Source: Marisa cornuarietis
Taxonomy: Eukaryota > Mollusca > Gastropoda > Architaenioglossa > Ampullariidae
Direction of reading: 5' to 3'
Assembly: GCA_004794655.1 (NCBI GenBank)
Contig: SMMW01000568.1
Location: 1,849,001 to 1,913,000 of the forward strand
Length of the DNA stretch: 64,000 nucleotides
Shown piece after piece: positions 1-64,000 of the stretch. The position numbers and the translations under genes were made by a program. Each line of letters opens with the position of its first letter. The first letter of the stretch is position 1. A model generated the notes under the pieces. That model did no database searches. It had not been told where the DNA came from and saw only the letters and a program-made list of their open reading frames with translations.

Positions 1-1180
1 CGTACGGTAGGTCACTTGGTTCCAAGCGCTACCAGTAAGATGAACACAATTCAAAACGTGGAAATGATTCTTCCAGAAGTCCTTCAGAATTATGCTGGTA
101 TCATTTGTTACATCAAAGCACTTTCTGAATATGGCTTTTGTGTGGAGTTTTTTTAAGTTTGAAATGACCTGTTGATCCATGGGCTGCAGCAGTGGGTTTT
201 GTGTTTGGTGGCAGATAATGGATATGAACAAAGTCGAACTCGTCTTCTAAATACTCGAGATTTGAAGGGTGTGCTGGAGCATTTTCCAGCAGGAGAAGGC
301 ATTTGAGGGGCAGGTTGTTCTTCTGTAAGGTATTCTTTCACAGTTGGGGCAAAAAGTCACCCACTCAACAAAAAATTGGTGGGTCACCCAGGCCTTAGAA
401 TTAGACCTTCACATAACAGGCAATTTCTGTTTTATTACATTGTTCTTCTTAAATACTCTCGGATTGTCTGAATGGTAGACTAACAGCGGCTTCAGCTTCA
501 AATCCCCACTGGCGTTACCGCACAATAGAAGAGTTAGCCTATCTTTCATAGGCTTGTGTCCTGGCAGATCTTTCTCCTCCTTCGAAATGCACGTTTTATT
601 CAGCAGCTTCTTCCAAAACAGTCCTGTTTCATCCGCGTTAAAAACCTGTTGTGGGATATAACCTCCTTCTTCTATGATTTTTCTGAATTCTTGAACTAAC
701 TCAGCCCCTGCCTTGTCAGAACTAGCTGCCTCCCCATGCCTTGTGACGTTGTGGATGCCTGTTCTGTGCCTAAATTTCTCAAACCAGCCTCGACTGGCTT
801 TGAAAACAAAATCACTCGCAGCAGTTGTCCCTGGGGTTTTCTTCTGCAAATCTTCGTAAATTTTCAGCGCCTTCTCACAAATGAATGACTCACTGATGCT
901 AACACCTTCTAACTGTTTCTTGTTTATATACACAAGCAACAACTTTTCTACTTCTTCCATTATTTGAGGCTTTAGCTTTGCTAAAGTAATCACTACCTTC
1001 AAAACATTAGCTTCTTTAAGCTGCTCCTTTTGCTTTAAAATTGTCGACTCGGACATGCCATTTTTGACGGCGATATTCGACACACGCATGCCTCCTTCAT
1101 ACTTTGAAATCATTTCCTTTTTCAATTTAATTGTTGGTCATTTCCTTTTCATTACCTTGCTTCTATTTGTCTTAATTTTC
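1..1180 (-). pseudogene. Degenerate Tigger transposase (CENP-B-type HTH plus DDE domain)
   Basis: An open stretch of about 238 codons at 409-1125 reads as a Tigger/TIGD1-like transposase: an N-terminal helix-turn-helix (about 1125-1030), a CENP-B-type DNA-binding region with the motif RGWFEKFRHRTGIHN, then the first catalytic aspartate in FNADETGLFWKK near 620. The frame ends in TGA near 409. The remaining DDE core continues in other frames down to position 1, including an NAPAHPSNLEYL segment. At least two frameshifts are needed. The residue normally D at the second catalytic position (LLLDNAPAH in relatives) reads as E here. Upstream, the usual start ATG appears as ATA near 1190 and an in-frame TGA follows. 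It therefore cannot make active transposase. Confidence 0.85.
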
Positions 1181-12167: not shown

Positions 12168-15100
12168 ATGGCTGACCAAAAAGACACAGAAAAAGGTGCT
12201 CTCTTACCTGGGGCAGGTGGGAAACAAGAGAAAAAAATGCCAGACTGGAGTCGTTTTGGTTTAAGTCGTGAACAGCAGGCACAGTCGCAGAAACATTATG
12301 CAGCCACCGTTCACACTGGTGACATTGGGCAGCACAACGAGCTGTTCAGGGAAGACCAGGTAGGTGCGGTGTTGTGTGTGATGCTGTAACTGCAAGGATA
12401 GCAATGATACTTTCCATGAAGGTATGAACACCTGCAAAGGAGGTTTTACACATATTGCTTTTTGGTTTTTGTTTTGTTGTTTTTTTTGTGCGGCCACATT
12501 CATCTCTTAGTGATGGTGCTCTGAGGGAGTGAGGGTATGTTTGTGTGTGTGTGTGTGTGTTTAAGAGAGAGAGAGATTGTCATTTAAGTCTTTAATTAAA
12601 TTATGCCATTTTGTTGCTGCATATATTTGCTGATTTGGAAGCACCCTATATATCGTTTTCTGAAATGCATGACAATACATGCACTTTTGCAGACGCTGCA
12701 ACAAGTACCATGGTGGAAGGCCAATTTCTTCATCTCACAGCCTGTCTTGTTTGGCACATGGGATGGTGTCTTTACATCTTGTCTTATTAACATACTCAGT
12801 GTTGTCATCTTTCTTCGCATGGGATGGATAGTTGTAAGTGTTTATTCAAAATTTTTAGTGGAATCTTTGTGAGCAGGTGGCGCAGCAGTATAGTGCTTGT
12901 CATCAAGGCGGCAAGCATCATTTGCTAAGAGTTCAGATCTTATATCTTGCACATGTAATTTCTCTTGTAATGTGGTGTCTATTTACAAGTTTATATTAGT
13001 TCCCATGATAAAGACAGCTTGTGACTTGGCCTAAAATACCAAATTAAATAAAAGCTTTATTGAAATCTTAGTCAAATCTTTAATCACATATTTGGGTTTT
13101 TCTGCATTTTTTGGTTTTGTTGTTGTTTGCTTTCTTTACAGTGGTTATCTCCTTTCTTCTCTCTGTTTTCTCACTCATCTCTCCTCACCCTCACCACCCC
13201 CACCCCCCACCATATACTGTCATTATTTTCACATGCATTCATGTGCTTACAGGGAAATGCTGGGATTGGATTGTCCATTCTGACTGTGCTAATGTCAATG
13301 TCCATTATCCTTATCACTGCACTGAGTGCAATTGGACTGTGTGAACGATGCCATGTGGACAGTGGGGGTGTATACTTCCTTATTGCTCATATTCTTGGCG
13401 CTCGTATTGGAGGCAGCATTGGAGTTCTCTACTGCTTTGCACAGGTTTGGTATAATTTCACATTCTCAAAAATAATTATTCTATGGTGCATGGTGGATAT
13501 GGGATAATGAGAAAAGACTCTTATGTAAATATAACCTTTTTTGTCTATAAAATTGAAAATTTAACCATACTGTATAAAACAAAGAATTAAAACTGTGAAG
13601 AAGGGAAGTTCAGTGTAATGAATATCTCTGACTGCTAACACAGTGGATGCAGTCCAGTCTTTATCTATATAGAGTTTAAAGAGCATTAAGATGATGCCAT
13701 TGCAAGGACTACTTTCACAATCTGTAAATCGCTCAGGCTGTTTGACTCAGTATTGATCTCTTACAACATCATGTGGGCTTTATCTGATTTTCCTATCAGC
13801 TTTTCATTTCTGAATAGAGCTGTAGTATTGTATGTAACAGGGTATAAGTAAATTCCTTTCTTAGAGAATCTAAATGCAAAAATAAAATATAATAAACAAA
13901 GTCTTGAGTGGTATTCACTTTGTTAAAAATCTCTTTGGTGCCACTGAACAAAATTATCTCTAGAACTGAATTAGAAAAATGTTGTCCAGTTGATCAAAGA
14001 CAAAATTTCCAGTGTGATACTCGGTAGCATACAAACATTTGAAAGCAGAAGAAATCTTACTGCAGGAGAACTTAAGGTTTTGTTGTGTGTGCTATCATTC
14101 ACATAGTTTGAAATGTCAGAATGCTAAAAACATTCATTCATTTTGACACAGTTTTACTCACTTTTCTGTAGGCTGTTGGCTGTTCACTGAGTGTGTTGGG
14201 TTTTGGTGAGTCAATTATGACCTTGATGGGACAAAGCAACCCATGGATCGCTCGGGGAATTGCCTTCGGTGTTGTGATTCTGCTGCTAGGTGGGTGAAAG
14301 TCTTTCACGTGAATCACAGAGTTGAAGGAAGTGTGGGCAGTGGTCAGTAAGTCGAAGAAGGTTTAACTGTCTGTTAGTGTTAGCAGATATTTTTTTCAAT
14401 GTTCTGACTCTAGACTGGTGATGGCAACCAGAGCAGCAGAAAAACCAGCCAATAGTGCTTTCTTCAAAAAAACAGGACAATCTTATCATGCTATAAAGAA
14501 GTGGGGAGGGTTTTTTTCCATTAAATTGATAATTTTTGTAATGATAGCAATCAAAACTTACCTATCTGCCATATATGCATGTGTGTGTGTGTGTGTGTGT
14601 TTGTGGATGCCTCTGTGTGTGTGTGTGTGTGTGTGCATGTATGCCTGTATGTGTGTGTGTGTGTATGTGGTAGAGGGTAGCTGGTGAAATTATATAAACA
14701 GGCTGGCACATGTGTGGACTGGGGACGGCACAATGGGAAGGGTGTCCCATGTCTGGCAAACCCTTTGCCCTCCCCCGGGTTGTTCCTATCCAGTGACCAG
14801 AATCCACTGTTTTTTTCTAGATAAGGGGAGATGGGTGGGGGATGGCCTTGAGCCCTCTGGTTTTCCCAGTGACCTCTCAAGGTCTCTGTTGGGTTTTTAC
14901 AGAGAGAAGGGGGCACTGTGGCAACAGATACATTCTAGAATATTCGGGATAGGAAGAATAAAAGGGCAAAACGGGAAGGGACAAGAAGCCATTCTTAGTG
15001 AAGGAGTTGTAGAGGTGAGAGCATTACCCACCAAGCAGTTTAAGGATTTCTCTTGTGAATGTTTTGCCTTAGCTGGAACCATTAACCAGCATGAGAGTAA

Positions 15101-16420
15101 AAGCAACTGAAACCCACGACAGTGTTCACTTGTGTTTAGTATTGTGGTGAGACTGGGTAGCCAACCCTCTTTTCCCCTGTATTATATATATATATATATT
15201 TATGTGAGAGAGAGATTGGGTGGGAAGTGAGATAGAATAAGAGAGAGAATATCCCATTCCTATGCTTCATAGGACAATTTCTTGACGGTGTGTAAAAAGG
15301 CACAACAGTTTCTGTGATGTGTAAACTGATCAATACAACCCACAAATGTGTCAATAGATATTAAATGATTTAACTAGCTTTCTAGCAATCCCTTTAATTA
15401 TGGGGGGACTTCCATCGACTGATATTACCATAAAAGCTACTGATTGTTAAAACTAAGTAGCGTAGGGCAATGGAGTTTGCACTGCAGTAAGGATGATTAT
15501 GACAGAGGTATTGGTATTTTGCAGGCATCAATGTGGCAGGAGTGAAATGGGTCATCCGTCTGCAGTTGATTCTTTTACTGGTTTTGTTCCTTTCAGCCAT
15601 GGACCTGGTTGTGGGTTCATTTGTGCACACAGAGCCTGGTCAGTACTTTGTGTGTGCCTGTGTGTGTGTGTGTGTGTTTGGGCACGTACATGCATGTGCA
15701 TGTAATTGCATTGTCTCTATTTCATCTTGCTTGCATGATGTCTACACCTTTCATATTTTCAGAAAGTGGTTTCATCGGTTACAAGGAGGTGAACTTTGTG
15801 AACAATTCAGGCCCAGACTTCATTGATGGGGAGAATTTTTTCACCATTTTTGGCCTCTTCTTCGCCACAGTCACAGGAATTTTGGCTGGCATTAACATGT
15901 CTGGAGACCTCCGTGATCCATTTCACAATATTCCACATGGCACGCTTGCTGCTCTTGGAGCTGGGTATGCATCTTTCTTTGACTTAAACTCTAGCATGTC
16001 ATCAAGATATAGATTTTATTGAACGAGATTGACTTCCCTTCTTTAAAATGGTATCATTATAAGGAATGTCTTTGGAAAAAATTCCATATTAACTGCAATG
16101 TTTGGATTCAAATGGCCTGCTTGTTTAGTTTTTATAAAAGTTCATCTGGGTTACTGTTATTATTATTGTCATGTATATATGCCTAATTGTTCAAACTGAT
16201 TTCAAAACAAATATTTGCAGAACAAGTCTGTACATAATCATTATCTTTGTGCTGGGAGCAACGTGTGTTCGAACATTTCTTCTGAATGACTACATGATTG
16301 CAGAAAAGGTTAAGAAATATTTTTGGTTTTCATCATTTTTTCCCCCTGATTTACCTGCTATTATTCTCCATTACTTTCTGCTGCGTTTTTCATTTTTATT
16401 CTAATATTTTAATGAGACTA

Positions 16421-28072: not shown

Positions 28073-29166
28073 CTGCTCAAAACAATGGAAGGACCAGTTA
28101 TATAGTCAATCACTGTTTGGCGCCAATAAACACACAGATGATAACATTTCTTTATTCATTAAAAATAAATATTAGCAGCCGATTTCATTCAAACATCATT
28201 TTAACAAAAAGAATTTGAGCTTGGACTGACATACCCATGTTTTCGAAATTCAGAAAGTGATAGAGAAAAAAAAAAGGTCAATATGGAGCGTGTCCACCAT
28301 TGACCTGAATGCAGGCAAGGCAATGTTGTCTCATGGACGGAACCAATGTTCTCAGAGTCCTTTGAGGAATTGCCTCGCTGTCTTGCTGAAGAAACTGGTA
28401 CAGCTGATAAATGGTCAGCTGCTGGAGGGTGGTTGGCTCTTAGTCGCTGACCCAGGACATACCCCCACACATGTTCATTGGGATTCAGATCTGGGGAACA
28501 GGCCAGCCAGTCCATGCAGTTGATTTGGTGCTGCTGCAGGAAGTCATTGACGACCCTGGCCCCGTGTTCCCTGGCGTCGTCATCCTGAAGAACAGCACCT
28601 GGTCTGGTGGCCTGCAGTGCTGGCAGTACCAGAGGCTGTAAAATGTTATCTCTGTATGCCATACCTATCAGGTTGCCTTGCACCAGGTAGAAGAGAGTTC
28701 TGTAGGCCGTTCACAGCCCATCCCACACCACACCATGGTGAATCCATCACCGTGGTAACTCTCCGTGTCGTCTCCAGACGAAGATTCGGTCATCATGGAA
28801 GGACCTGGCAAAGTGAGAGTCATCGGCGCATAGAAACCGGCAACACCCTCCCACTGTTCTAAAATTACTGAGTACATAGTGTTGACAATGGACGGGGCTT
28901 GCACGTGCACTGCGTGTTTTCAACTGTTCAGTTCTGCGAGATAAGTTGCTATTGCACGCATTTTTTGTGGGTTTAAGTTTTTTTTTTTTTTGCTTGACTG
29001 AGCACGCACAAGACAAAACTGGATTATCATCAAATTCACGTTGACTGTTCACCCACACAACAAATTCACTTTACAAAAGAGTTTGAAGGAATTGCCCACT
29101 GCTGGTGCAAACATGATTTTAAAAAATTAGATAATATGAAGGTGGCCTTTCCATTTTTTTGAGCAG
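28073..29166 (-). mobile_element. Tc1-like (IS630-Tc1-mariner) DNA transposon, both ends present, inactive
   Basis: The left end CTGCTCAAAACAATGGAAGG at 28073 and the right end (complement CTGCTCAAAAAAATGGAAAG, ending 29166) form terminal inverted repeats of about 25 bp. On the right the repeat abuts TA. The left flank reads TAGA, so the TA duplication there has drifted. Total length is about 1.1 kb, normal for Tc1 elements, with the transposase on the minus strand. Confidence 0.88.
28290..29058 (-). pseudogene. Degenerate DD34E Tc1-like transposase
   Basis: In minus strand frames the catalytic core is recognisable: CADDSHFARSFHDDRIFVWR (first D) near 28810, LQDDDAREHGARVVNDF (second D) near 28570, and ACSPDLNPNEHVWG (E) near 28470. 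The spacing from the second D to E is 34 residues, which marks the DD34E group. Several frameshifts break it, for instance after HVWG and between the first and second D, so no full protein is possible. The N-terminal paired-type DNA-binding region is not clear. Confidence 0.85.
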
Positions 29167-46100: not shown

Positions 46101-49100
46101 GTCACTCCAAATTATCGCTAAAGCCCTGTTAGTTAATGCAACATATTATACTTAAATGGTATACAAACTCAACGGAAGAAAAAAGTCAAGATGACAAGTC
46201 AAGGATACACTTGCTTCCAACTCTTGCTCCTTGGCACGTATATTGCTTCCAAGTACTTCCATGTCTTCTTCAAACTTCTTTTTGCTCGGTGCCTTTGGCC
46301 GTCTTGCGTCTGCACAGAGACAAAAAGGGTAACGTACTCTGCTTCAGTATAAATTCCTGTCCATCATTAAAAATTAGGAATAAGATTAGGAATTATGTCT
46401 AAATCATCTGTTTTATCACCTCTTATAAATCTTCTTTTCTAGTCCAAAGTCCCAGGAACGTATAAAATACCTTAGAATGCTAATACACTCTCTGGTGGAT
46501 TACATAACATCTTTTGTGCACAATAACAAATAAAGAACAACCACACATCATCAATGACACTTCAACCTCAAAGCAAACACACAGAAGTGATTCTGGAGAG
46601 ATGAGCAAAAGGCTTCGGGCCCTTCCCACCTATGTCAATATCAAATTTTTAGATGTATAGATGTATATACAAACACAATGCTAGATCAACAATTTTTATC
46701 TCTTGCACTATAATTTCTTTGCTGGCTCCTGTCCTGACTATTTCTCTGAACTTCTCATCCCTTACTCTCCGGCCAGACAACTCCGCTCTTCCTCTGACAA
46801 CCGTACTCTGACTGTTCCTGTCACCAGAACAACAACATATGGTCACAGGACTTTTGGCTACTGTGCTGCAAAACAATGGAACTCTCTTCCTTTCCATATC
46901 CGCCACCTTCCTACAATTGAATCCTTCAAATCTGCACTGAAAACGCACCTCTTCCTTGAGCACTACTCCTAGTCCACAATGCTAGTCCTTACCCCCCCTT
47001 CCCTCTTGCTACTTTACCCATCACTATTTTTCTCTGTTCCTGTTACTTGATGCCTTTTGTTATCTGTTTTTGTCAGTACTGTCGTTTTCTTTCGTCCCCT
47101 GTGTTCTGTATCTACTTAGTCCACGTCTCTTCCCCGTTTTAAGCGCTAAGAGCATACTCTCTACGAGTGTGAATATGCGCTATAAAAATCTTCACTATTA
47201 TTATTATTATTAAATGTTTTAAATTAATATGTATTTTTATTCCAAATGGGTAAAGCCGCACGTTGGAACTTTATTATTTTGCCTAAAACACAGCAAAAAC
47301 AATCAGATTTGATTGCGTAGGTGTCCAAACAAGCAACAAACTGCTACAGGCAACACCGTGTTCAACATCTGCTCAATTACAAACATAGCTTGACAGGTGT
47401 CTGACACTCAAAAAATTCATTTCTCATTTTCGCCTTTTGTGTAGAATATCAGGCACAAAAATACAATTCAAGATCGGCTTCATTTAGCCAGAAACAAATG
47501 CCCTATGCTTATTTACACAAAAATATATCTACAAGATACAATAATTTCCTAAGAAAGAAGAATGCAGACACCTCAGGCATCACTCTTAAATAAACAAGAA
47601 TATCTGTTCTGGTCACATTTTATTTATGCTTTTTTTTTAAAGTCCACCTAAGCATGCAAAACATCACCAGCTGAAGTTATACTGTAACCAGATTGTAAAT
47701 TTCACGTAAAATCTCTCTTTAATATCATTATATACAATATCTAAAAAATGGCCTAGTTCCATGTGAAAACTGGTGGGGAAATGTGAATCCAATGCAAGCT
47801 CTTTAAAGGTAATTTTAAAAAAACTAGTGGCTTAAACATCTTTAAGTTAAAAGCTGCAAATCACTCTTTTACCCACTAATAACGTAAATCTTATAATGAA
47901 CAGTCATTTTGAATGATGCAATGCACACTGCTTGTCAAATGAGCACTAGAAAATGGGAATGGTATTCAACTGGTCTCAGATAAAGCCATCTGCATTTCAT
48001 GACCTGTTTTAAACAGCAGTCTACCACCAACTGTGCAGGACTGACCTAGTCCTACTGCCCCTTATTTGTTGGAACTATATAGTCAATAAATTGTCCCAGT
48101 ACTTATCTGATATCAATATATGACAGGGTGCAAATAAGGTCTTGACAGCATATAAAAACGAATAAATTAAGAATCTTTACTGTGCTTAGGCTCAGAATGA
48201 TTGTGAGACAATATGAAGACTATGACCAACACTTGCCCAATTAGAACATTTTATAATTCATTCTAAGTTTAACATATACTTTTGTGGGTTTCTTGTAAAA
48301 AAAATAAATTAAATGCTGATTTAAAATTTATAATAGTGTGTGAAAGACAAAGATTTGACAGCTTGCCATGGACAGCTGAAGTATGGTTGGGGACCACAGC
48401 ACAAAGGTAAAAACTACATAAAGAAAGGTTTGCTAATGCATTCAGTCTCCTCGCTGAGGCATTGGAAGATGACTGTACACAGTTAATGCTCTGTGTGTGT
48501 GTGTGTGTGTGTTTGTGCATGCACACAAAATAGTTTGTAAAAAAAAAAAAGCCTATAAGTTTTACCGCCCTGACCCAATTTCTCTGAATAAGCTCTAAAA
48601 ATAGGACAAATTTAGCCAGGCAGAGGTAGGTACAGGTGTTTTCTAGTAATGGCTTTCATGCATGTGAGTGGATGTTTGTGATGGGTAGCTTCAAGCCAGA
48701 GCCTGCCACAATATAAGAATTCTTTTATTATCATCATTGTTATTTTTTACTGGTGCAATAATGGTATAAAGACCTATGCATTTCAACCAACTACTGAGGG
48801 ATAGAGATGCCTGCTAAACTTTCAATCACTATGACAGTACATAAAGACAAAAATTAAAGTTGAACTTTGATGCCATATTTGTGCATTACCAAACTTCAGA
48901 TATACACATTTCAACAAATTGATTTGGAGCTGTGTTTCAAACTTTCTAAGACACTAAATCACTTCTTCTTGATTGTGTTCCTATAAATAAAGTATATGGG
49001 TTCAGTTGCCCAGAAAATCAATTAGGGATGCTGACAGCTGTTATTAACATATGAATGAAATAGCGAGAACAGCAACCAAAACAAAAACAACCAGCTAAAC

Positions 49101-51232: not shown

Positions 51233-54200
51233 GTGAGCATACGGTACACTATTTTTATTCAATTTCAGTAGTGACCTATTTTTCAAAAAGCAAAACGCCG
51301 GAACAGTCGCATACGAACTCGATTTTTTTCACCTTCCGTGTTAGTAGTGACAAATTATTGATCGCAGAATTTGATCCACGTAATCAATTTGAACAGCAGT
51401 ATTTCAAACTGTAAAATCGTTGTCTTTTAATGTTAGTGTTTGATAAATCATTGCAAAATCTTGCGTGCTGTTTACCCCAAAGCACCAATATCAAATGACA
51501 GGCACTAGTAGACAGATGCTTTGCTACTTGCCTATGCTACGAGTACGATCTAAGTAATCTATCAGTTACGATTAGCTGAATATGTATCCAGATTTATTGT
51601 ATTTACAATGACGTGTTTTCTTTTAATTACTCGTTACGTGGATCTGTACATTTTAATTTTACCTCACTAAACTACAGAATGTTGAACCATCATTGGTAAT
51701 ACTAATAGTATTATGAACATAAATTCGAGCCTTCTAATTCTAGGAACAACGCAGGGAATTTTATTACCTGTGGGAAATAATCGTTGTCATGGAGTTAGTT
51801 GTACCGAGCATTCACCACTGAGTAAAGGCTATCGCAATATTGAAAAAAAAAGCGTGCAAACATAAAATAAAACAAAATAGTACATTAGTACCATAACAGT
51901 AGATTGTCGTTGATGTCCAATTTTTAGCGAGCAGAGGCACCGCTATTTCGGAGTCACATCACGTCCTAACTGGTAAATGTTATATTCCGTTTTTTTTTTC
52001 ACGTGGCCGACATAGCATGTGAAAAATGTGGACAAAGTTATTGTATAATCTATTCATGTGTATTTCATATTTCAAACATTTTATCCTTAGTGATTTTATT
52101 GACTGCTACAGTGTGCTTATTGAGTAACAGAACGAACACACGTTGAAACTCACCTTATTCACCACATCCGCCTTCCCAGCCCCCTTCATTGTGTCAGACT
52201 CTATTAAGTAAAAAAAAATCCTCAAGCTTCTTCATTTGTAGAGAATATCAGTCTAGGATACTGCGGACATTGCTATTTTGGTTTATGTATGTGGCTTTTA
52301 TTTTGTCACTGTATTGTTGCACTGTACTTTACAAGGCACAATTGAAATATAACAAATATACATTGGTTCCCATCTGCCAGTTCTTGCATTCAGTACAAAC
52401 TGTCTGTGCTGTGTTTTAATTTCTTTGCTGGCTCCTGTCCTGACTATTTCTCTGAACTTCTCATCCCTTACTCTCCGTCCAGACAACTACGGTCTTCGTC
52501 TGACGACCGTATCCTAACTGTTCCTGTCACCAGAACAACAACATATGGTCACAGGACTTTTGGGTACTGTGCTGCAAAACAATGGAACTCTCTTCCTTTC
52601 CATATCCGCCACCTTCCTACAACTGAATCTTTCAAATCTGCACTGAAAACGCACCTCTTCCTTGAGCATTACTCCTAACACAGTCCACACAATGCTAGTC
52701 CTTCTTAACCCCCCCCCCTTCCCCCCCTACTTTACCCATCTTTCTCGCAGAATCACTATATTTCTCTGTTCCTGTTACTTGATGCCTTTTGTTTTCTGTT
52801 TCATCGTCAGTACTGTCGTTTTTTTTCGTCCCCTTTGTTTTGTATTTACTTAGTCCACGTCTCTTCCTCGTTTTAAGCGCTAAGAGCATGCTCTCTATGA
52901 GTGTGAATATGCGCTATAAAAATCTTCACTATTATTATTATTTCAGTTTCTGATACTTTTGAAAATAATTTTCACCTTTATTTGGGATCATGACTTTACA
53001 CATATAGTACCATCTGAAGGTTATGGTTTAAATGAGGATGAGCCACAGCTTTTAAACTTTTTCTGTCGTGATTTTGGAAGTCCCATCTAATGCATAAGTT
53101 CAGTATTATTATAAGATGATTAATATAGCAGCCCATAATACCAGTGAAGAGACACATTCCTGTGCTTAAATATTTAATAAAGTTAGAGTTTCAAATGGTG
53201 TAAGAGCTGGGACTTGGAGTAAAACTGCAGTTTAGTTTGTTGGTGCATATCAAATGAAACATGCAAACAACAGTTACATTGGGTATTTACGGTAGAAATG
53301 TAATAATGTGTGCGTGTGTGTACAGATTGCTGCCCAAAGAAGCAAAGAAGAAAATAAAATGTTGGGTACTCAGAATTATAGATACAGATGAAATAGCAGT
53401 TTTTATAGTCATAGATTTTATAAATGTGCACCAACAGTATGCATTTTTTAAAATAAATTAAACTCGGGTGATTTTCTTCCATTTTTAGTTAGGCAGTAAA
53501 ATTTTAAAATGCATTTACATTGCTTAAGCTTGTTAAGTTGAATAAATGCCATGGCCATGCAAGGTGAGTGTAGTTTTTTTTTTTTTTTTGGCTGTATTTA
53601 AAAGGAAATTATGGTACCAAAGCTTAAAGGACAAACTAAGTGCATGTTACAAAAGTGTTTGTCTAAGAGAAACTCCTGTAATGTTTTTTGATTTGATGGT
53701 TTCAAGCATTGCATTTTTATTTCATAGTTTCAACTGACTGCTGATGAGGAATTTTTACAATTAAAAACATAATCATAGTTTGAAACATGTTGATCAATGT
53801 AAAAACTTATTTCTTCCTCATTTAGCTGCGTGATACTCGCACCTGTTCCCGTGCACCTAATATTAATGTTGTGTTTGTGACTGTGTCACGATGTTACTTG
53901 TAGACCAGACAGTGTAGAAACCGTCGATGTTGCATATCTGGTGCTTGATCTACCAGCAGTCGTAGTTGGTTTTAACATCTTGTGCTTTTGTATAGTAAGA
54001 CTGCTGTATAAAGATTTCTTCATTTTACTGAAAGTCCAAGACTTGCTTGTACTGTATAATTGACTTGATAACAATCAATTTTGAAATGCTTTGAGCAAAT
54101 TCTTGAGTGCGGTCTGGGGACAAAGTTCGCACGGCACGTTTGAATAAAGCAGAGATCTGTATATACACATCTTCAAAAAAAGTTAATCCACTAGCTGCTT

Positions 54201-54874
54201 TTTGCTGCCATTATCTTTAGGATTTCCTTAATGAGTACAAACTAACTCCATCTGAGTGTCAAAGAGAACATTCAGCAACAGCGCGATGTGTACTGGTCAG
54301 TTTTCTTTTACCAAGGATTGCGCCTTTTCTCTTCGATTTCAGCTAGTACAGATGACGCTATTTTTAGAAATACTTCCGTTTTGTCACTTCCTGTTTTCTT
54401 GACAAATCCAGGTGTGCTTAAGAGAAAAATATTAATATAAAATCTCTCATGCCTCTGTCATGAAATACCACCAGAATATATTTTTGTGATACTTTGTGCT
54501 CTGTTTCCAGGGAATTTTTGCTCAGCGATCGGGTTGGGCTTTAAGTGAGAGTAAAGGTTACATTTGAAGTACATGTTGTCTGGACACACTGTATTTCACA
54601 CTAGACCTGCAAAAATACAAGTTTGAACAGGCAAGCAACATAGAAGGAGTTGAAAAAAATAGAACAGTCACAATGTGGAAATAGATACAAGAAGCGGTTG
54701 TTTTTGAGATGGGATGAAAATAATCAGATCACATCAATAGTATCATTTTTTCATGGATTCTGCAGGTGGCCATGCAGTGTTTGATCTTGGTTTCAAAATG
54801 AAAGTGTGCTGATAAACTTTGTATTTTGTAATATCTTGTTAGTAATATACAGTTGCATTTGTTTTCTGTTTCAG
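51233..54874 (+). other. Probable RAD21 first intron
   Basis: About 3.6 kb, containing the second LINE tail. No coding signal is seen. Open frames near 53.2-54.1 kb are short, on both strands, and without domains. Confidence 0.5.
52350..52942 (+). mobile_element. 3' end of a CR1/L2-like LINE, copy 2
   Basis: Same family and strand as 46711-47214 and very similar through the ORF2 end (stop at 52676-52678) and the tail GCGCTATAAAAATCTTCAC plus ATT repeats. It begins about 65 bp further upstream in the element (an HWFPS...CIQYKLSVLCF piece), so the two copies were truncated at different points, as expected for target-primed reverse transcription. Confidence 0.85.
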
Positions 54875-57800
54875 AAAGGCTGACAAAGCCTCTTGGCAAA
54901 ATGTTTTACGCACACTTTGTGCTTAGTAAAAGAGGGCCCCTGGCCCGGATATGGCTGGCTGCACATTGGGACAAGAAATTAACCAAGGCTCATGTCTTTG
55001 AGACCAACATAGACAGCAGTGTGGAAGCTATATTGAAGCCAAAGGTAAAGGGCCACTTTATGACTTAAGGTGTCTTGGTGTTAATGCAAAAATAACAGAG
55101 TGGGTTAAGGGTAAATTGTTGTTGAGAAACAGTTATGACTGATTCAAGTTTCATAATCTTTAACCCTTTTTTACGTATGTAGAGGCAGTCAAAATTTTTT
55201 CCTATATATTGAAAATGTGTGATAGAAAGTGTATGAAATACATAAAAAGCAACAACTAATAAGTAAGGTTCTGTTCTTAGTAGAAGTAGATATATGCTAC
55301 TTTAAAGGTGCAAAGTTTTGTTCTCCAGCATATAAAGTTCTGTTTCACAATTTTGCGAGTAATCATGACAATAACAGTAATAATAATAATGGGATTTTTT
55401 ATAGCCCATTTCCCCTAGATGGATGCGAGTTAATAGCTCTTTACAAGATACATTGAGCAGTATGTAATGATGTTGGGGCCAAAGAAAGAGAATGAGTGAT
55501 AGCCAAACCTTACATCAACTAAATGTTGTGCTTAATTCATTCAAACATGGCCCTATCCTCCTAAAAGAGTAGCAATGGAATAAACTAAACAAGATCAACA
55601 GCTCAGAAGGTGAAAAATGTCGAATTAACATATCATTGGAAGTATTTGTATTTTTTAAACAAAAATGAAAACCATTTTAAAAAATCTTGACAGTTAAGGG
55701 CATGACTAAAAATTTACAAGAAAAGAGAAGTGGTTAGAAAATGAAACTCTGGATCAGCATCTGTGCATATATTCACTCGATATAATTAGCATACATATTG
55801 CAATTTTTTCTAGGATTTTTTTCACTTTGACAATAAGCAAATAGGTGTCTAGGATAAAATTTTTTGTCTTCAGCACACAGATCAGTAAACATGACCCATA
55901 AATCAATACAATATACAACAGTGGAAAGGCAGATCTTTAGTTTTATGTAACTTGTTTGTAAAGAAACAGGTATGAGGTAACAAATGCAGTTCAAAAACCT
56001 ATTTCAAGCTCTTGTGTGTGTGTGACTGCTGAGACTACTGCCAATACTTCTGTGTGCATTTAACATACTGTTAAGTGCATCAGTGCATGTTAATCAGAAG
56101 TACTTAATATAGTCTTTTTTTTCTCATCCTATGAGTATGAGGCTTGAGATTTTGTTAGCTCAGCATGTCTTTGAGACAAACCTAGCATTTTTAATATTTA
56201 TTTGAATTATGTTAACGTCCATTCACTCTTTCCTTCTGTTCTTTTCTTTTCCCTGTTTACTTCCTACAGTTTTTTCTGGATGTGACACCTGTTTATATGG
56301 CAGACTTATTTTTTTCTGGCACTTTGATATTCCCCAGCTTTGTGTGTGTGCTTGCACATGCATGTTCATGAAGGTGCATTTGTTGCCTACACTAGAAAGC
56401 TGTGTGCTCTTGCACCTTCATAGGTGTTGTTTGTATGTTGTATATAAAACACTTTGAACCTGGTATTGGTGCTTTGGAAAGATACTCTGTGTGTATATAT
56501 ATATATATATATTATTGTTTTGGTGTGCTCATTGGTATTGACCTATGTTGCAGGTGAAAATGGCACTTCGCACTTCAGGTCATCTTATGCTTGGTGTTGT
56601 GAGAATCTACTCACGCAAAGCAAAATATTTGCTAGCAGATTGCAATGAGGCCTTTGTAAAAATAAAAATGGCTTTTCGGCCAGGTGTGGTTGATTTACCA
56701 GAAGAGAATCGAGAAGCTGCGGTTGCTGCCATCACTCTTCAGGAAAACTTTCATGATTTTGAGACTGCTCTTGCAGATCTAGAGTAAGTTTATATGTGTG
56801 GTGCAATTCCAGCAGTGGTGCGTTTTGTATTAGAAAACGATCTGGCTGCAGTCATAAGTGAATTAGAAAATAAAACTGTGGGAGTTTATTGTTTTTGTAG
56901 ATTATTTTATTTTCTGAGGCCAGTGTTTTATTCTGCATTTGGTAAATGACAGAAACCATAAATAAGTTAAACTTCCGGTCTAAGAGGGAATGTCAGGGGT
57001 TTTTGCTTTTTTTAAAAACTATTATTATTTGTGAATGGGAGTGAAACTGGCCTGCAAAAAAAGGATAAAATGGGAAAGCAAATTAAAAGAAAAAAAGTTA
57101 AACATCTCAAACATTTGGACTTTGAAGTGACTAAAATCCCAGTTGTGTTTTGGAAATGTTGGACAGGTGGGGAATAGTAAATTGCAAAACTATATTGTCA
57201 TACAATTTTTTTTTTTTTTTTTGCACACAAAAAACAGGGACATTGATGTTCAAGCTCAGTTTTCTGTCAACCAAAGTCGTCCTGAGGAGATTACAATGCG
57301 AGAAGACCTGGGCTCCATCCCTCTTATGGGAGATGATGGATTTGGTGAGTGTCTTCCTTGCTGGCTTCATGATGCAATTTTGCATTGCTTAAGTCAGACT
57401 AGTACCTGTTCATTGCAATGAAAGATGTGCGGTACTGTTATGTCTGATATGCATTGCTGCTGTCTTGTCGTTGTACACAGATAATCTGGAAGAAGAGGAC
57501 AGCTTAGGTGGTGAAGTCAACGATGAAGAGTTCACACTCATCATCCATGGGTTCAAAACTGACTTTAAAAGCCACCCATTAGATTTTGCCAAAATATTAG
57601 ACACTGTGGAAAGCACTCTTCAGTGCAGGTGCAGATGCCAGGGGCCATGGGTAAACATTGTTATTAACCATAACCCCACAGAATCTCAAGGCATTTGTAA
57701 CCAATCCCGGACTGTACATCCTTACTATAAAAACACAAAATGTGACAGTGCTGAGAATTATACAAGGTCCCCGTTTCCCTTTTATGATAAACTCGGTTTT

Positions 57801-60800
57801 CCATTAACAGATGTACAATTTAAAGCCAAAAGGACTTGTTTATGTTGTGCTTCAGTAAATGATAGAACGAGAAGCAAATGGCATTTTACAGCAGCAAATG
57901 GCAGCTCACAGAACTTAAATATCAATATTAACAAAATACCTCCAAGCTCTTTAGTACATACCTCAGGGATTTCATCTGTTACCAGCACTCCTAGTGGCAG
58001 CGTTTTGAGTGTTGGACAGTTACCTGCCTCACCATCCATTAACGAACATGAACTTTTCAGTCATCTCACTGTGCAAACTATAAAAGCTGGGTTAATGATC
58101 GTTTCTCCTGTGTCAAAAAGATGGAGCACAGACGACCCATTAAACAGTGCAGTGTTGTTAAGAAGAACTAGTGCTATGTCTGTGTCCAGCTCTGGTTATG
58201 GCAGTGATTTTCAGAGACTTAATTCAATCTCTTCAGACAAAGACTGCAGTTGTTTTTGGAACTGTGAAATGGATGTTCGTCCAACTTCCATCATTACACC
58301 AGGACATATAGATGGTATGGGTATTTGCCATTCCACAGATGCATTTAGCAGCCCTGATTCCTTTTTATCTCAGGATGTTTCTCTTGAAAGAAGTAGTAGC
58401 AGTATAAAGTCACAGACATATAAAGTTGTACGTAGATTATTCACAGCAAGATCGCCATCCACACTCTGTGTTACACAAGCTGAAAGTTATAAGTGGCAAC
58501 CAGAGACTGTTGAGCCGCACAAGGTCATTGTCAGCAGTCTGGACAGCAGTCTCGGCCTTGATAGTGATCCAGGTTACGACGACTTTGATGCTGAGTCAGG
58601 GATCTCTGAGGACATGGGTTCCAATGATGAGACAAGTGACCTTGACTTTTGTCCGCCGACTGGCAGTGGCACTGGCAACCCAAAGGGTAAGAAGTCAGCT
58701 AGATTGGGGTCAAAGTTTAGGTTTTATTCCACCCTCCTTTTTAAGACTTCGAACCAGTCCATCTCCAGGAAGATTCCAATTGGAGTCCGGCAGGCATAGA
58801 CGTGCACCAGTTATCTTTTGGTGGAAAAGGGTTAGAAGATTCTTTTCGCCTTCATTCTTGCAGACACAGCACACTTGTTAAGACTTTGACCCCAAGTTGA
58901 CTTCTACCCGCTGGTGTGCTAGTAAAACAATGATTTGTTGTTTGTGGATGTTTCATGTAATGGATTTGTAAAATTATTTGTGAAGCTACAAAAGAGCTAA
59001 TTTCCAGTGCCCACTATCCACCCCTGCCCTGTCTGTAATTATGCCTGACTCCAATTGGGATTTTTTTTTTTTAGTTGCCTTTAGGCTAGAATTATTTAAA
59101 ATATCAAAATAAAAGACTTAAAAAAATTGTATTATCTAAGGATGTTAATATGCTATATAAACATTTAGGGATGCAGGTATTCAGGTGTGCTCTGTCATAA
59201 TAAGTGTCAGGGCAGCCAAAATCCTTGTTTTGTGCTCCCACTCTTCTCTTTCATCATTTTTCTCCCTACCTCAGTCCTAAATAGCAAAAAAAGCTTAAAG
59301 TGGTTAAACTAATGGTTCAAGTAGTATTAAGGCCATAGGATGCAGTTTGCTGACTTGTTTTTTTGTGCTATGGAAGTGGGTCTTGTAACTTTAAAGTGCG
59401 AGCATTATTTATTTATTTATCATTTTTTTGAGGCCCTGATCTGGTGAAAGGCACCCCTCTACTTGCCCATCTACTGATGGAGGACAGACTTACATAGGGA
59501 CAAGCACTTTTTTGGAAACGGTCAAAATAAGACAAGTTTAATAAGTATGGTAGTACACGGAACTGTTATCAAGGGCAGCTTGGCATTTCAGAGAGGTGTG
59601 GCAGTCTCAAAAGAGCAAGTTTAAGTAAAACTTGCAATAGCTGTAGCAGGGAACTGCTCTACCAGATTTATGGAATCCCCATTCTGATGACATGCACAAT
59701 GCAGGGTGGTAACCATCTATTGCTGTGACACATAAACTAGTTATGTTTAATTATTTTCTCTTTTCAAAGTAGCCAGCAAGACATAAGACCATTTTCTTTT
59801 CTTTTTCATTATAAGTGAGTCACTAAAAGTTCATTGTTAAGTGTTTATGCATGACTTTATATTTTTAATGATTTCCTCTACCTTCCAACCTAATTTGTTG
59901 CTGTTAACTGGTATCTAAATATACACTACAACAGGAGATGTAGGGTTTGATGAACGAGAAATATTGCGAGACACCTCCCATCTGGAGGATCCTCTCTACA
60001 AGAATCCTGAAGTGACCAGTGCTGTTCATATGGATGATCGTGACAAAACCCTGACAAATGACTCACGCACTGAGAAGTCTATGGACATCAACCTTGAACC
60101 TCCTGTAGAAGGAGATGGCTATGAAGATGGTGTTGGTGGTTTTATTGGTAAGACTCTGCTGCAAGTATTTTCATCAGTTTTATGGTGTATTATTTGTAAA
60201 CTTTGAAGTGAGTTTATTTTTAATATACATAGTAAATATGAATGGCCTTCATACCTTATGCAAAGAATTGCTGGTGAAAATATCTTTTGCTCATTCTTTA
60301 TGTCATAAAGAGGATGTCAGGTGCATTTTTCTGTTTGATCTGACGCTTTTGGTTGCTGCTATGTTTACATATAACAAAAGCCTTTGGTTTTTTTTTTTTA
60401 ATTAGGTGGTGGGGCTGATGATGATGGTGATGACAGTGACGGAAATTTTGGAGATGTTGATCAAGATTTCTTTGGTAAGATTTTTTTTTTCCAGGCACAG
60501 ACTGTCAGTTTTTTGTATGCTTGTGTGTGGGTAATGTGCATATATACATGAACATGGAACAGTTCTTAATAGCATGGTGTGGTAAGATTTTACATTTTAA
60601 TACATCTTTGGTCTCCCAAAATATGATATGTCATACAGTCATGCTAATGCGTGGTTCTTGATGTTTGAAACAATTACAGGGCAAGATTTCATGGAGTCGG
60701 GAGGATTGTTTGAAGACACACCTATGCCAGAGGTACCAATATCCCATGATAACGGAGAGGAAGGTCCAGCAGTGGGAAAATCTGATGGTATGCTTAATTA

Positions 60801-63508
60801 ACATATAAAAATTAGTATTTTATGCCATCATTAACAATGTATCCAAAATCACTTGCATTAACCGGAGGGGGGAAAAAAGCTTTGTAAAGGTTTTGCATTG
60901 TAAGTAGTTTGTTACAGCTTTCTATAATGACCTACATTATTGGAACTTGTTACAGAACATGCAAAAGGAGCATCCGGAGGGGCAGCTGATGCTGAGGAGA
61001 CAGTACCTCTTCAGGCAGCAGCCAGTGCCTCTAGCATTTCTGCTGAGCAGACCACTTTGGTGCATAATGAAGAAGAAGCTTTCGCACTTGAGCCATTAGA
61101 TGTCACCGCTGTTCCAGGTTAGAGTGATTACAATTGCTTTGATTATATTGCCTATAGAGAGGAGGGTCATACATCTAGACTGTTGAGTGTACTCTTTAAT
61201 GGTGTTTTCGTTATAGACTTGCAGAGTTTGAAGTTTTGCTCAGGGTGTATCTAAAGGTGCAATGAACAGGAAGGCCAGATCAAAAGCAATAGGGGTTTGA
61301 AAGGTGAGGCCCCAGTGGGGGAAAGGGAAATGACAAAAGAAAGCAGGGCTGCAGTAAAAGACAACTAAACAGAAAACGGGGTGTATGATTTCCTAACAGT
61401 ATTGTCTGCATTCCGCACAGTATTGTTACAGGTGATCGTTTTGATATATTGTATTGAAGGTTCGTTTCTGTTCCCTCCAGCCAATTATAAAATATGGTTT
61501 GAGGATTGGGATATAAGTTGTTTTTTTTTTTTCTCAAGACTTGTTAGCAGAAACAATACTTAAATCTTTTTTATAGAAGGTTTTTACAAATCAGGAAATC
61601 AGAAAAAAACCCGATGCTACTGTTCTTAAGAACATGTGGATGTAAACATTAAAAAGAAACATTCTGCAAAATTATCACAACACGGTTAAAAAAATTATGA
61701 AAGTAATCCTCACAGGGGCGAACTCCCATCTTGAGTAAGATAAGCATAATCTTTTTTAAAACTTGTTTTTAATGGCATATTAAGATTCCACATTTCTGAC
61801 TAAAGTAAGACAAAACCAAATCACTCGTCTTATTATTATCATACAAACCACAAGATAAGAACTGCTTTTTTCTGATGATGTCAGTCAAGCTATGGACTAT
61901 TTCAGAGGCTTTCTCTCAAACTTGAGTGTGCACACACATACACACACACTCTCGTACAATTGGATAATGTTATGATGAAAGTGTGATCTTAGCTTCTTTG
62001 ATGTGGGAAAAAGCTTTGTTAACACCAAACAATCGTTACAATTTTACAATCTTCCCCTTCACCCCCCCCCCCAACAAAAATCAAAGAAACTGCTTAAGGC
62101 AAAAATAGTTGCCCAGTGGGTTGTTGTAATTGTTCACTTATGCAGGATACTAAGTAAGTTGAAGCTGGACCTTGTTTGAAAATCTAGACAAGAATCTAAA
62201 TATATATGACCATTTTAAATCAACATTTATTGTCAGAATGTTCAGTTCGGTTAATTTTTATCACCAAGAGTTCTAAAGACTTTTTGAACTTCAGGTATCA
62301 GGAAAAGTAGGGATGGGGTGTTTGGTGACATTTTTATGCAAGTGGCAAAACAGTGAACAAAGTCATTCCTGGCTGATGGTTTTTAGAAAAATGATTACAA
62401 AGACTAGATATTGTAGGACAAAAAAGGCACAGCATGGATTTTCCAACATATCTTTGAATATAGTTTAAAAGTAAACCTAAAAACTGAAAGACAAAGAATA
62501 AGAAGCATAGAGATGAAACAAGATGTGGGGTTTTTCAGGCCAAATAAGAAAATGGGTATATGTGCCCCAGGTCATATCTTTTTTTTCAATCTGTAATAAA
62601 TGAAATAGTGACATAACTTGTGAATAGTTTTTTCTGTGCAGTATAAAAACATCCTAGAATGGTATTTCTAACAGGTTTTTAGGTCCTTAAAAAGTCCTTA
62701 TTTTCAGTGTGGTCAGACCTGTGTGAACCCTGACTTGGAATAAAGCATTGTTGGTAATATAAGCACTTTTTTTAAATGTACAGCTACAAGAAAGAATGAC
62801 AGCATTTGTATTTTTTTTTAATGGCTATTGTTTACTTATCTTTAAGCTTTGTCTTTAGGAAAGGAAATAAAATGTGAAAAGCAATTATGCAGATCCTTAT
62901 ACATAATCCATGTTGTTGCTTTGCAGGTGGTATAGAGAAAAAAGGCAAGCGAAAGCGGAAACTTATTGTTGATGAGCAGAAGGGTATTCCAAGTGAAACG
63001 ATGAAGCTTCAGTTGTCTGACACCACAGACATTGTCACCACCTTAGATCTTGCTCCACCCACAAAGAAGCTAATGCATTGGAAGGAAACTGGTGGTGTGG
63101 AAAAGCTGTTTGCTTTGTCAGGCAGGCCCATAGTCTCCAAAGCAACAACCTGGGTTTGTAATTTTGTAGATGTTGCTTTAAGCAGAACTTGTGTTGCTTT
63201 ATTTTGAGACTCTTCTAGAACTACTGGCAACAAATCTTTACAGCAGTGAATAGTTTTATTCCATTACAGTTTTGAAGCAAACAAAATCTTGACAGAAAAT
63301 TATTCCTTGAATGTTATAAAGTGATATGTATCTGAACCTGTCTAGTGTAGCACTGTATTAATCATAAAATATATTGGTATTTCTTAACAGTTGTTCACCA
63401 AGAACCTAGTTACAAAGCCTGTGCTTGATGACCTTGAGCTGGGTGATGAGCACCAGTTAGACTTGTCTGCACCACTTCCAGAGATCACACGAGAAGAGGA
63501 GAAAACAG
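54875..63508 (+). CDS. RAD21: RAD21/SCC1 cohesin kleisin subunit, N-terminal and middle part
   Basis: ATG is at 54901. Exons: 54875-55044, 56554-56783, 57238-57344, [57481-58686, see separate entry], 59935-60147, 60406-60474, 60680-60787, 60956-61117, 62927-63153 and 63391-63508; the gene runs on past the window. Without the bracketed exon this is 459 residues. [20 protein letters not shown] and [19 protein letters not shown] form the SMC3-binding N-terminal domain (1-105). The separase site EILR ends at Arg172, the same number as in human RAD21. An acidic, Gly-rich middle follows, then [26 protein letters not shown] and [19 protein letters not shown], the STAG-binding region. The C-terminal SMC1-binding winged helix is outside. 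RAD21 closes the cohesin ring for sister-chromatid cohesion, DNA repair and loop extrusion. The middle exons are all phase 1-1. Confidence 0.96.
55368..55452 (+). repeat. Dispersed repeat, family C, copy 2 (RAD21 intron)
   Basis: It begins with AATAATAATAATGG and has TTTTTATAGC, TTTCCCCTAG, then AGCTCTTTACAA in the same order as the copy at 18055-18130. Confidence 0.45.
56372..56490 (+). repeat. Dispersed repeat, family A, copy 2 (RAD21 intron)
   Basis: It shares AAGGTGCATTTG, GCCTAC and CACTTTGAACCTGGTATTGG with 7906-8020, with a short insertion between the two halves. Confidence 0.45.
57481..58686 (+). CDS. RAD21: Unusual 1206-bp RAD21 exon, phase 1-1, probably alternative
   Basis: It is open throughout. 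The acceptor TTGTACACAG precedes it and the donor GG|GTAAGA follows. The preceding RAD21 exon ends in phase 1 and the following one begins in phase 1, so inclusion keeps the frame. It would add about 402 residues between GDDGF and G-D-V-G-F. It opens acidic ([18 protein letters not shown]), has 14 Cys including CRCRC (49-53), CLCC (120-123) and CSCFWNC (256-262), a Ser-rich centre with [17 protein letters not shown] (228-244), and an acidic end ([18 protein letters not shown]). No known domain is recognised. The first ATG is about 200 codons in, which argues against a separate gene. Without splicing at its donor, the frame stops at 58797-58799. An open frame this long in AT-rich DNA is very unlikely by chance. 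Confidence 0.7.
59108..59113 (+). terminator. Candidate intronic poly(A) signal in RAD21
   Basis: AATAAA lies about 310 bp after the stop that ends the read-through form of the large exon. It could end a short RAD21 transcript. The downstream U/GU-rich element is weak. Confidence 0.3.
59968..59979 (+). other. RAD21: Conserved separase cleavage motif in RAD21 exon
   Basis: The exon 59935-60147 opens [16 protein letters not shown] fits the separase consensus (D/E)xxR and aligns with the human mitotic site EIMR ending at Arg172. The large alternative exon would lie immediately N-terminal to it. Confidence 0.75.
61118..62926 (+). other. RAD21 intron of about 1.8 kb
   Basis: AT-rich with a C run (about 62062) and a short CA run (about 61930). 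No coding or RNA gene signal is seen. Confidence 0.75.
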
Positions 63509-64000
63509 GTACTTAAAATTAGGCATGTTGTAAATATTGTCTACCAAATTACTGTGCAAAATGCTCGAGGTTATTAAGGTCAGGTGTCTACAAACACAAA
63601 ATCTTTATTTTTGGAATATATTTTAAAGTTTTTTACTATAGAGTGTTAAAGTACCATATATGTAGCGCATACAAAATGTTTTTGGGTACCTACAATGAAA
63701 ACTTTGATATCAATCAGATCACGTTGTTTCAAATTTTTTTACCAGAAACTTTAATGTAAGCTGATTGGTTCATAAATCTAACAATGAGCGCTTTTGTCAT
63801 TACAAAATGATTGACATTTGTTGATTCATCCAAAATCAAATTCAGTTAATGCATAATTTTTTAAATATTGTCTGATTTAAAATAGCCATGAACGATACAA
63901 AAAAGGGTGACCTGGTTTAGTTAAAGATAGTTTAGAAATAATTTTTACCATAGGCTTTTACCTTGTCTAGCAAGGTATGGAAGAAAATGGCATTTCAAAT
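63509..64000 (+). other. RAD21 intron, cut by the right window edge
   Basis: It starts with the donor GTACTT after the last exon in view (ends 63508, phase 1). No further exon is seen before the edge. Confidence 0.7.

Follow-up and report, generated by a model that had tools for sequence, protein, structure and literature searches.

The 64,000-nucleotide stretch of DNA analysed here (the window) carries a RAD21 gene on its + strand, whose ten exons here begin at the start codon (54901) and end at 63508. The 3' part of the gene extends beyond the end of the window. Both the N-terminal domain and separase site 1 align to RAD21, and the alignment to human RAD21 (7zjs_B) reaches 429 bits over query residues 1-436 and is gapless around residue 160. 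The C-terminal winged-helix domain (PF04824) was found in the proteins P0007 and P0041; the gene itself runs out of the window. The exons of interest are the following:

57239..57344, + strand: RAD21 exon before the insert, ending ...MGDDGF in phase 1 (gene model, human alignment)
57481..58686, + strand: very probable alternative exon encoding a 402-residue insert, both borders in phase 1 (gene model, relatives, isoform pairs)
59935..60147, + strand: RAD21 exon after the insert, holding the residue aligned with human separase site R172 (gene model, human alignment)

The exon at 57481-58686 spans 1206 bp with zero in-frame stops and is bordered by an acceptor (...gtacacag) and a donor (gtaagaagtc...). 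Its two other frames contain 16 and 43 stops, an open run of 401 codons has a chance of about 1.4e-11 at the base composition of the exon, and 0 of 20000 shuffles of the exon stayed open. This exon also falls within a 468-aa frame, the longest between two stops anywhere in the window. Gene model, stop counts and shuffles thus confirm the uninterrupted exon with acceptor and donor that the original prediction had described. That prediction also assigned phase-1 borders to all neighbouring middle exons, which holds for the exon itself but not for all of its neighbours, as 57239-57344 starts in phase 0 and 62927-63153 ends in phase 0. With 1206 bp and phase 1 on both sides, skipping of the exon keeps the frame, as is characteristic of a cassette exon. 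The preceding exon closes with the residues ...MGDDGF(G), while the following one encodes FDEREILR and aligns to human RAD21 without gaps to R172 and beyond. Human RAD21 lacks the insert in this alignment, in line with what had been assumed for vertebrates. The anticipated long RAD21 of about 1.6 times the usual size also agrees with the data, since P0010, a short form, counts 680 aa when read from the usual start, to which the exon adds 402. GC content by codon position is 0.43, 0.47 and 0.36 in the insert and 0.62, 0.38 and 0.38 in the nine other RAD21 exons; the coding claim is therefore based on homologues and not on composition.

Relatives, age and alternative use of the exon

A protein search with the insert only, which had been suggested as a check, returned seven relatives, one of them 81% identical along the full insert length. 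They include a RAD21 of Batillaria, which has both insert ends. P0001 matches the window insert at 327 of 400 residues. A second search used the spliced protein, was scored on residues 140-600 and covered the 7986 candidates with the most shared words. Its 36 listed matches comprise 22 short forms and 14 sequences with the insert (11 RAD21 proteins and 3 insert-only frames). The named carriers in this list are Gigantopelta, Patella, Liolophura, Ylistrum, Argopecten, Biomphalaria, Bulinus, Aplysia, Bradybaena, Elysia marginata and Batillaria, and Lymnaea was added by a search with the chiton insert region. Short forms only were listed among the 36 matches for species including Babylonia, Littorina, Nucella, Mytilus, Mizuhopecten, Lottia, Physella and Elysia chlorotica, which does not prove that they lack the insert. 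Lineages were checked for Batillaria, the chiton Liolophura and Ridgeia; Ylistrum and Argopecten are scallops. The insert sits at the same residue in the chiton, in scallops and in many gastropods. At 402 aa in the window, it measures 126 to 409 aa in relatives annotated at full length and 109 in a single Batillaria model. Cephalopods, oysters and further annelids were absent from the listed matches of the three protein searches, Pfam and PDB gave no relatives of the insert, and nucleotide relatives were found neither in IMG/VR (pattern and profile scans) nor in GTDB (profile scan).

One of the five proteins listed for the chiton insert region is a RAD21 of 843 aa from the tubeworm Ridgeia piscesae, at an E value of 3.4 that alone is not significant. 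This protein has 187 additional residues at the same point, starting DSGFEDDDFGGAISEE, and the chiton insert starts DSGIKDFGGEVDDEE. A profile built on 18 inserts (that of the window and those of 17 proteins, one of them partial) scored the Ridgeia insert at 26.7 bits, compared to 8.6 bits for the top of 1000 shuffles and 1.1 bits for the top of 22 short forms. The N-terminal module of the Ridgeia insert reached 15.6 bits on its own (best shuffle 4.2, best short form 5.4). Its C-terminal module was not significant, with a best stretch of 6.9 bits in one profile test and 0.3 bits in another. Taken together, the profile scores suggest that the annelid insert is probably homologous to that of the molluscs.

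As far as sequence comparison can date it, the exon is old, neither recent nor confined to a single lineage. Its retention appears to go back beyond the split of chitons, scallops and snails, and probably beyond that of molluscs and annelids. A newly exonised, lineage-private sequence, which the original prediction had offered as one explanation, does not agree with an insert that is common to chiton, scallops and gastropods and has an annelid relative; a transposon-derived exon is rejected in view of the same conservation.

Annotated long and short isoforms were compared for seven carriers, and in five of them (Gigantopelta, Liolophura, Argopecten, Biomphalaria and Aplysia) the two differ by exactly the insert. 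The pairs of Batillaria and Bulinus show further differences outside it. These pairs are annotations with automatic names. For some species, e.g. Patella, Bradybaena, Elysia marginata and Lymnaea, only the long form was among the matches, as might be expected if the exon were constitutive in these animals and the short isoforms were annotation artefacts. We consider this highly improbable given the five exact isoform pairs and the existence of P0010, a short form from a near-identical relative, which shares 454 of 459 residues with the window short form. P0010 comes from contigs of at most 3888 nt whereas the RAD21 exons of the window span more than 8 kb, from which we infer that it represents a spliced transcript. 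Moreover, all seven full-length lgn/jgi RAD21 proteins among the 36 matches are short forms. Judged by annotated and listed proteins rather than by expression, skipping seems to be the common state. We are thus confident, on the basis of homologues and isoform pairs, that 57481-58686 represents a conserved alternative exon of RAD21. Of the earlier interpretation, the cassette exon is retained and the recent exonisation is not.

The inserted protein segment

The insertion point lies directly after RAD21 residue 160 and shortly before separase site R172; 11 residues of the usual protein separate the insert from the arginine aligned with human R172. The contacts described for human separase bound to SCC1 site 1 are at residues 166-172, 175, 183, 185, 189, 191, 194, 209 and 211 (PMC12609080), and the insert is outside the contact residues described there. 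Once RAD21 is cleaved, the insert would remain on the N-terminal fragment. A separase site within the insert was considered and rejected, as it contains no ExxR but only DRTR and DFQR.

Both ends of the insert are conserved, whereas its middle varies. AlphaFold2 (AF2) predicted the window insert (7 sequences) to be disordered, with a mean pLDDT of 32.2 and one helix at 35-49. For the Gigantopelta long form (11 sequences), pLDDT values of 76, 78 and 72 were obtained over residues 171-200 and helices were placed at 173-181 and 194-206, in a whole model that was poor (mean 41.7). An ordered fold was rejected, as the two helices of one shallow model found no support in the other. The insert also contains RRLF at residue 317, a motif that we take to be cyclin-docking-like and that is too short to weigh.

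The second conserved end reads LDSG(L/I)G.(D/E)SDPG and carries acidic serines. DSG(L/I)G is present near the C-terminal end of 15 of the 18 inserts; the window, P0001 and Bradybaena are without it, and the window and P0001 have DSS where their relatives have DSG. Phosphorylated DSG could be read by SCF-betaTrCP, in which case the insert would act as a degradation tag and the long RAD21 would be short-lived. BetaTrCP recognises DSGxxS, DSGxxxS and also non-canonical forms (PMC5514133). The window insert, however, has zero DSG, the motif is absent from Bradybaena, and few of the relatives with DSG show the DSGxxS or DSGxxxS spacing, most having a four-residue one. Enrichment of DSG over shuffles was modest per species (p 0.0055 to 1.0). 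A degradation tag is thus quite unlikely in our view, and we treat the resemblance to beta-TrCP degrons as a lead, not a result. Our preference, a tentative one, is that the insert serves as a phospho-docking linker.

Predicted RNA folds and conserved intron blocks at the donor

Folding of the downstream intron predicted two duplexes, whose arms are located as follows:

58680..58718, + strand: 5' arm of the predicted donor hairpin (duplex I3), holding the donor GT at 58687, with conserved blocks at 58686-58700 and 58705-58715 (folding, k-mers)
58881..58914, + strand: 3' arm of the predicted donor hairpin (folding)
58767..58798, + strand: 5' arm of a second, interleaved predicted duplex (I1), with a conserved block at 58780-58790 (folding, k-mers)
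59040..59067, + strand: 3' arm of the second predicted duplex (folding)

The predicted hairpin I3 encloses the donor in 32 pairs at -49.3 kcal/mol. Shuffled introns gave a mean of -26.7 kcal/mol (sd 2.5, lowest -33.7 of 100), and the local fold at this donor had a z of -4.28; the predicted duplex over the splice site is hence more stable than expected by chance. When the ten RAD21 donors were compared, z was lowest here (-3.99), followed by -2.80 at 57344. Two controls speak against a special status of this site: other 43-base stretches of the same intron found partners down to -35.5 kcal/mol, and predicted pairing of donor bases is common in this gene, with a mean of 0.89 at this donor, 0.96 at 57344 and values of 0.58-0.83 at the eight remaining ones. 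The second duplex, I1, comprises 28 predicted pairs, begins in the loop of I3 and ends outside it; its best energy was -39.6 kcal/mol, compared to -24.5 kcal/mol in shuffles (sd 2.7, lowest -32.1 of 100). The two duplexes cross and cannot nest. Forced folds of 58650-59080 gave -132.0 kcal/mol with I3 and -128.1 kcal/mol with I1, and the ensemble mean pair probability over this segment was 0.96 for I3 and 0.001 for I1. By contrast, the minimum free energy fold of 58676-59080 formed I1 and lacked I3, so that the preferred duplex depends on the chosen ends. An Rfam scan of 54000-64000 returned two sub-threshold matches, neither at donor 58687.

The frame stays open for 37 codons past the donor, to a stop at 58797, and the proteins of six relatives also read on through it. 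GKKS, the reading of the opening intron bases, is the same in the window and all six of these relatives, and the intron readings of the window and P0001 differ at 5 of 37 residues. Such continuity would be expected if the exon were used with the downstream intron retained, yielding a truncated N-terminal RAD21 with 37 extra codons. To locate the conserved bases, window k-mers were matched to all sequences that could encode the intron-reading peptides of P0002-P0006, of which P0002 and P0003 are close to one another; P0001, the nearest relative, was excluded. At k=12, the first 12-mer, which starts at the last exon base, fits all five distant relatives, while a control set of 4202 12-mers taken elsewhere in introns contained 20 that fit one relative and 0 that fit at least two. 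At k=10, with the register kept within 12 bases, the 10-mers fitting at least two relatives form GGTAAGAAGTCAGCT, TGGGGTCAAAG and TTGGAGTCCGG, compared with 5 of 4000 in the control. All of these blocks lie in the 5' arms of I3 and I1 and none between the arms. The first block is partly ordinary donor consensus. The third (TTGGAGTCCGG) fits P0002, P0003 and P0004 only, as P0005 and P0006 end upstream, and it is read in one frame by P0002 and P0003 and in a different one by P0004, which argues for a constraint on nucleic acid rather than on protein. This change of frame speaks against intron retention, as does the divergence of the readings beyond the 5' arms, where they stop at different points. 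In addition, full-length annotated isoforms are spliced at the donor, and the read-through may merely reflect genomic contigs. We regard intron retention as an improbable explanation.

The conserved intron blocks constitute our strongest support for a functional RNA element. This conservation was read via peptides and covers the 5' arms, the 3' arms being known from one species; it bears on the blocks themselves and not on pairing in the relatives. We judge it reasonably probable that the donor carries an RNA structure which is both conserved and functional. The exon could also be alternative while the duplexes do not control splicing, forming instead dsRNA for A-to-I editing, the remnant of an inverted repeat or blocks bound by proteins. 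According to PMC8052449, conserved paired intron stretches overlap editing sites too, and conservation is known here for the 5' arms only. However, the first arm starts at the donor, and within the window the I3 core occurs in its own two arms only and the I1 core in its own two arms plus a palindromic overlap, so no dispersed repeat is seen there. We rate duplexes without a role in splicing as less likely than not. Pairing, as the same source indicates, tends to obstruct splice sites (PMC8052449). A donor locked into a helix would accordingly be poorly used, which fits the many short forms. Repression of exon inclusion by the hairpin is suggested by the folding models, at what we would call slightly short of even odds.

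A model for regulated inclusion and its relation to known systems

We propose an old alternative exon whose inclusion is restrained by a hairpin and which encodes a disordered, Ser/Cys-rich linker, a model to which we assign a probability of roughly 0.55. The nascent RNA would fold the donor into the 32-bp hairpin and mask it from U1, making skipping the default and standard RAD21 the product. Opening or refolding of the hairpin, e.g. by the second interleaved duplex or a bound protein, would allow the exon to be included. In the resulting long RAD21, the N-terminal half and separase site 1 would be joined by a linker that is mostly disordered, rich in Ser and Cys and marked by conserved acidic-serine motifs. 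Most likely, this linker would be a phospho-regulated docking stretch that alters cohesin turnover or partners while the cleavage site is retained. A far-reaching extension, which we regard as doubtful, is that the two interleaved duplexes act as an RNA switch, which would predate the distant gastropod relatives and set the choice between ordinary and long RAD21 in lophotrochozoans, and that the long form makes up a cohesin class of its own per cell type or stage with no gene duplication.

The variety of kleisins in animals is usually credited to gene copies, for example REC8 and RAD21L. With some 126-409 codons, an optional exon would open a second way of diversifying cohesin, and together with the donor hairpin it may point to another, regulated version of the core cell-division protein RAD21. 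The hairpin offers a concrete regulatory hypothesis, and optional use of the exon is testable with existing RNA-seq. Among the open-licence papers listed by text searches, none describes the mollusc RAD21 exon in its title or abstract; oyster rad21 has been quantified by qPCR (PMC9340784). The predicted hairpin over the donor is new here, as is the finding that conserved intron blocks fall in the 5' arms of I3 and I1; neither was part of the original prediction.

Compared with beta-TrCP phosphodegrons (PMC5514133, PMC7862229), most relatives share DSG with acidic and serine residues, whereas the window has DSS and the spacing in relatives is mostly non-canonical. Paired conserved complementary regions of human introns (PMC8052449) likewise place complementary intron stretches beside a splice site; here, in contrast, one arm spans the donor and a second duplex interleaves, with 3' arms known from one species. 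Human RAD21/SCC1, the mitotic kleisin of cohesin (7zjs_B, 6wg3_C), shares with the window protein the gapless N-terminal domain, the insertion point and R172, whereas the window protein has 402 more residues past residue 160 upon inclusion. A further parallel is offered by the X1/X2 models of Gigantopelta, Liolophura, Argopecten, Biomphalaria and Aplysia, in which the two forms differ by exactly the insert at the same residue, with insert lengths of 126-409 aa and a variable middle part.

Mobile-element-like and repeated sequence

Two open frames with similarity to transposases lie on the minus strand, and two frames on the plus strand have a near-identical stretch in common:

409-1137, minus strand: 242-aa open frame with matches to Tc5-type HTH and DDE_1 transposase (Pfam)
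28201-28710, minus strand: 169-aa open frame whose DDE_3 transposase match scores 21.4 bits and so falls short of the curated cut-off of 28.6
46685-46972 and 52346-52678, plus strand: pair of open frames sharing FFAGSCPDYFSELLIPYS...

The shared stretch is a dispersed repeat. A Pfam search with the frame at 46685-46972 returned no match.

Permease-like exons

One further set of exons resembles amino-acid permeases and presumably belongs to an SLC12-type transporter gene:

13064-16022, plus strand: exons that match amino-acid permeases in Pfam, one above the cut-off at 25.1 bits and another below it

Surroundings of the RAD21 insertion point

The donor at 57344, which ends the RAD21 exon preceding the alternative exon, also lies in a strong predicted fold (fold-energy z -2.80, mean donor pairing 0.96). 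The best predicted fold of 57330-57560 (-80.2 kcal/mol) takes in the opening nucleotides of the alternative exon. At the protein level, two matches that represent RAD21 without the insert, P0026 (Nucella lapillus) and P0038, carry the separase site 1 segment in tandem repeat directly after the insertion point; the repeated segments are DVGFDEGEILRGDVGFDEGEILRG; GDVGFDDRAGDVGFDDREIL.
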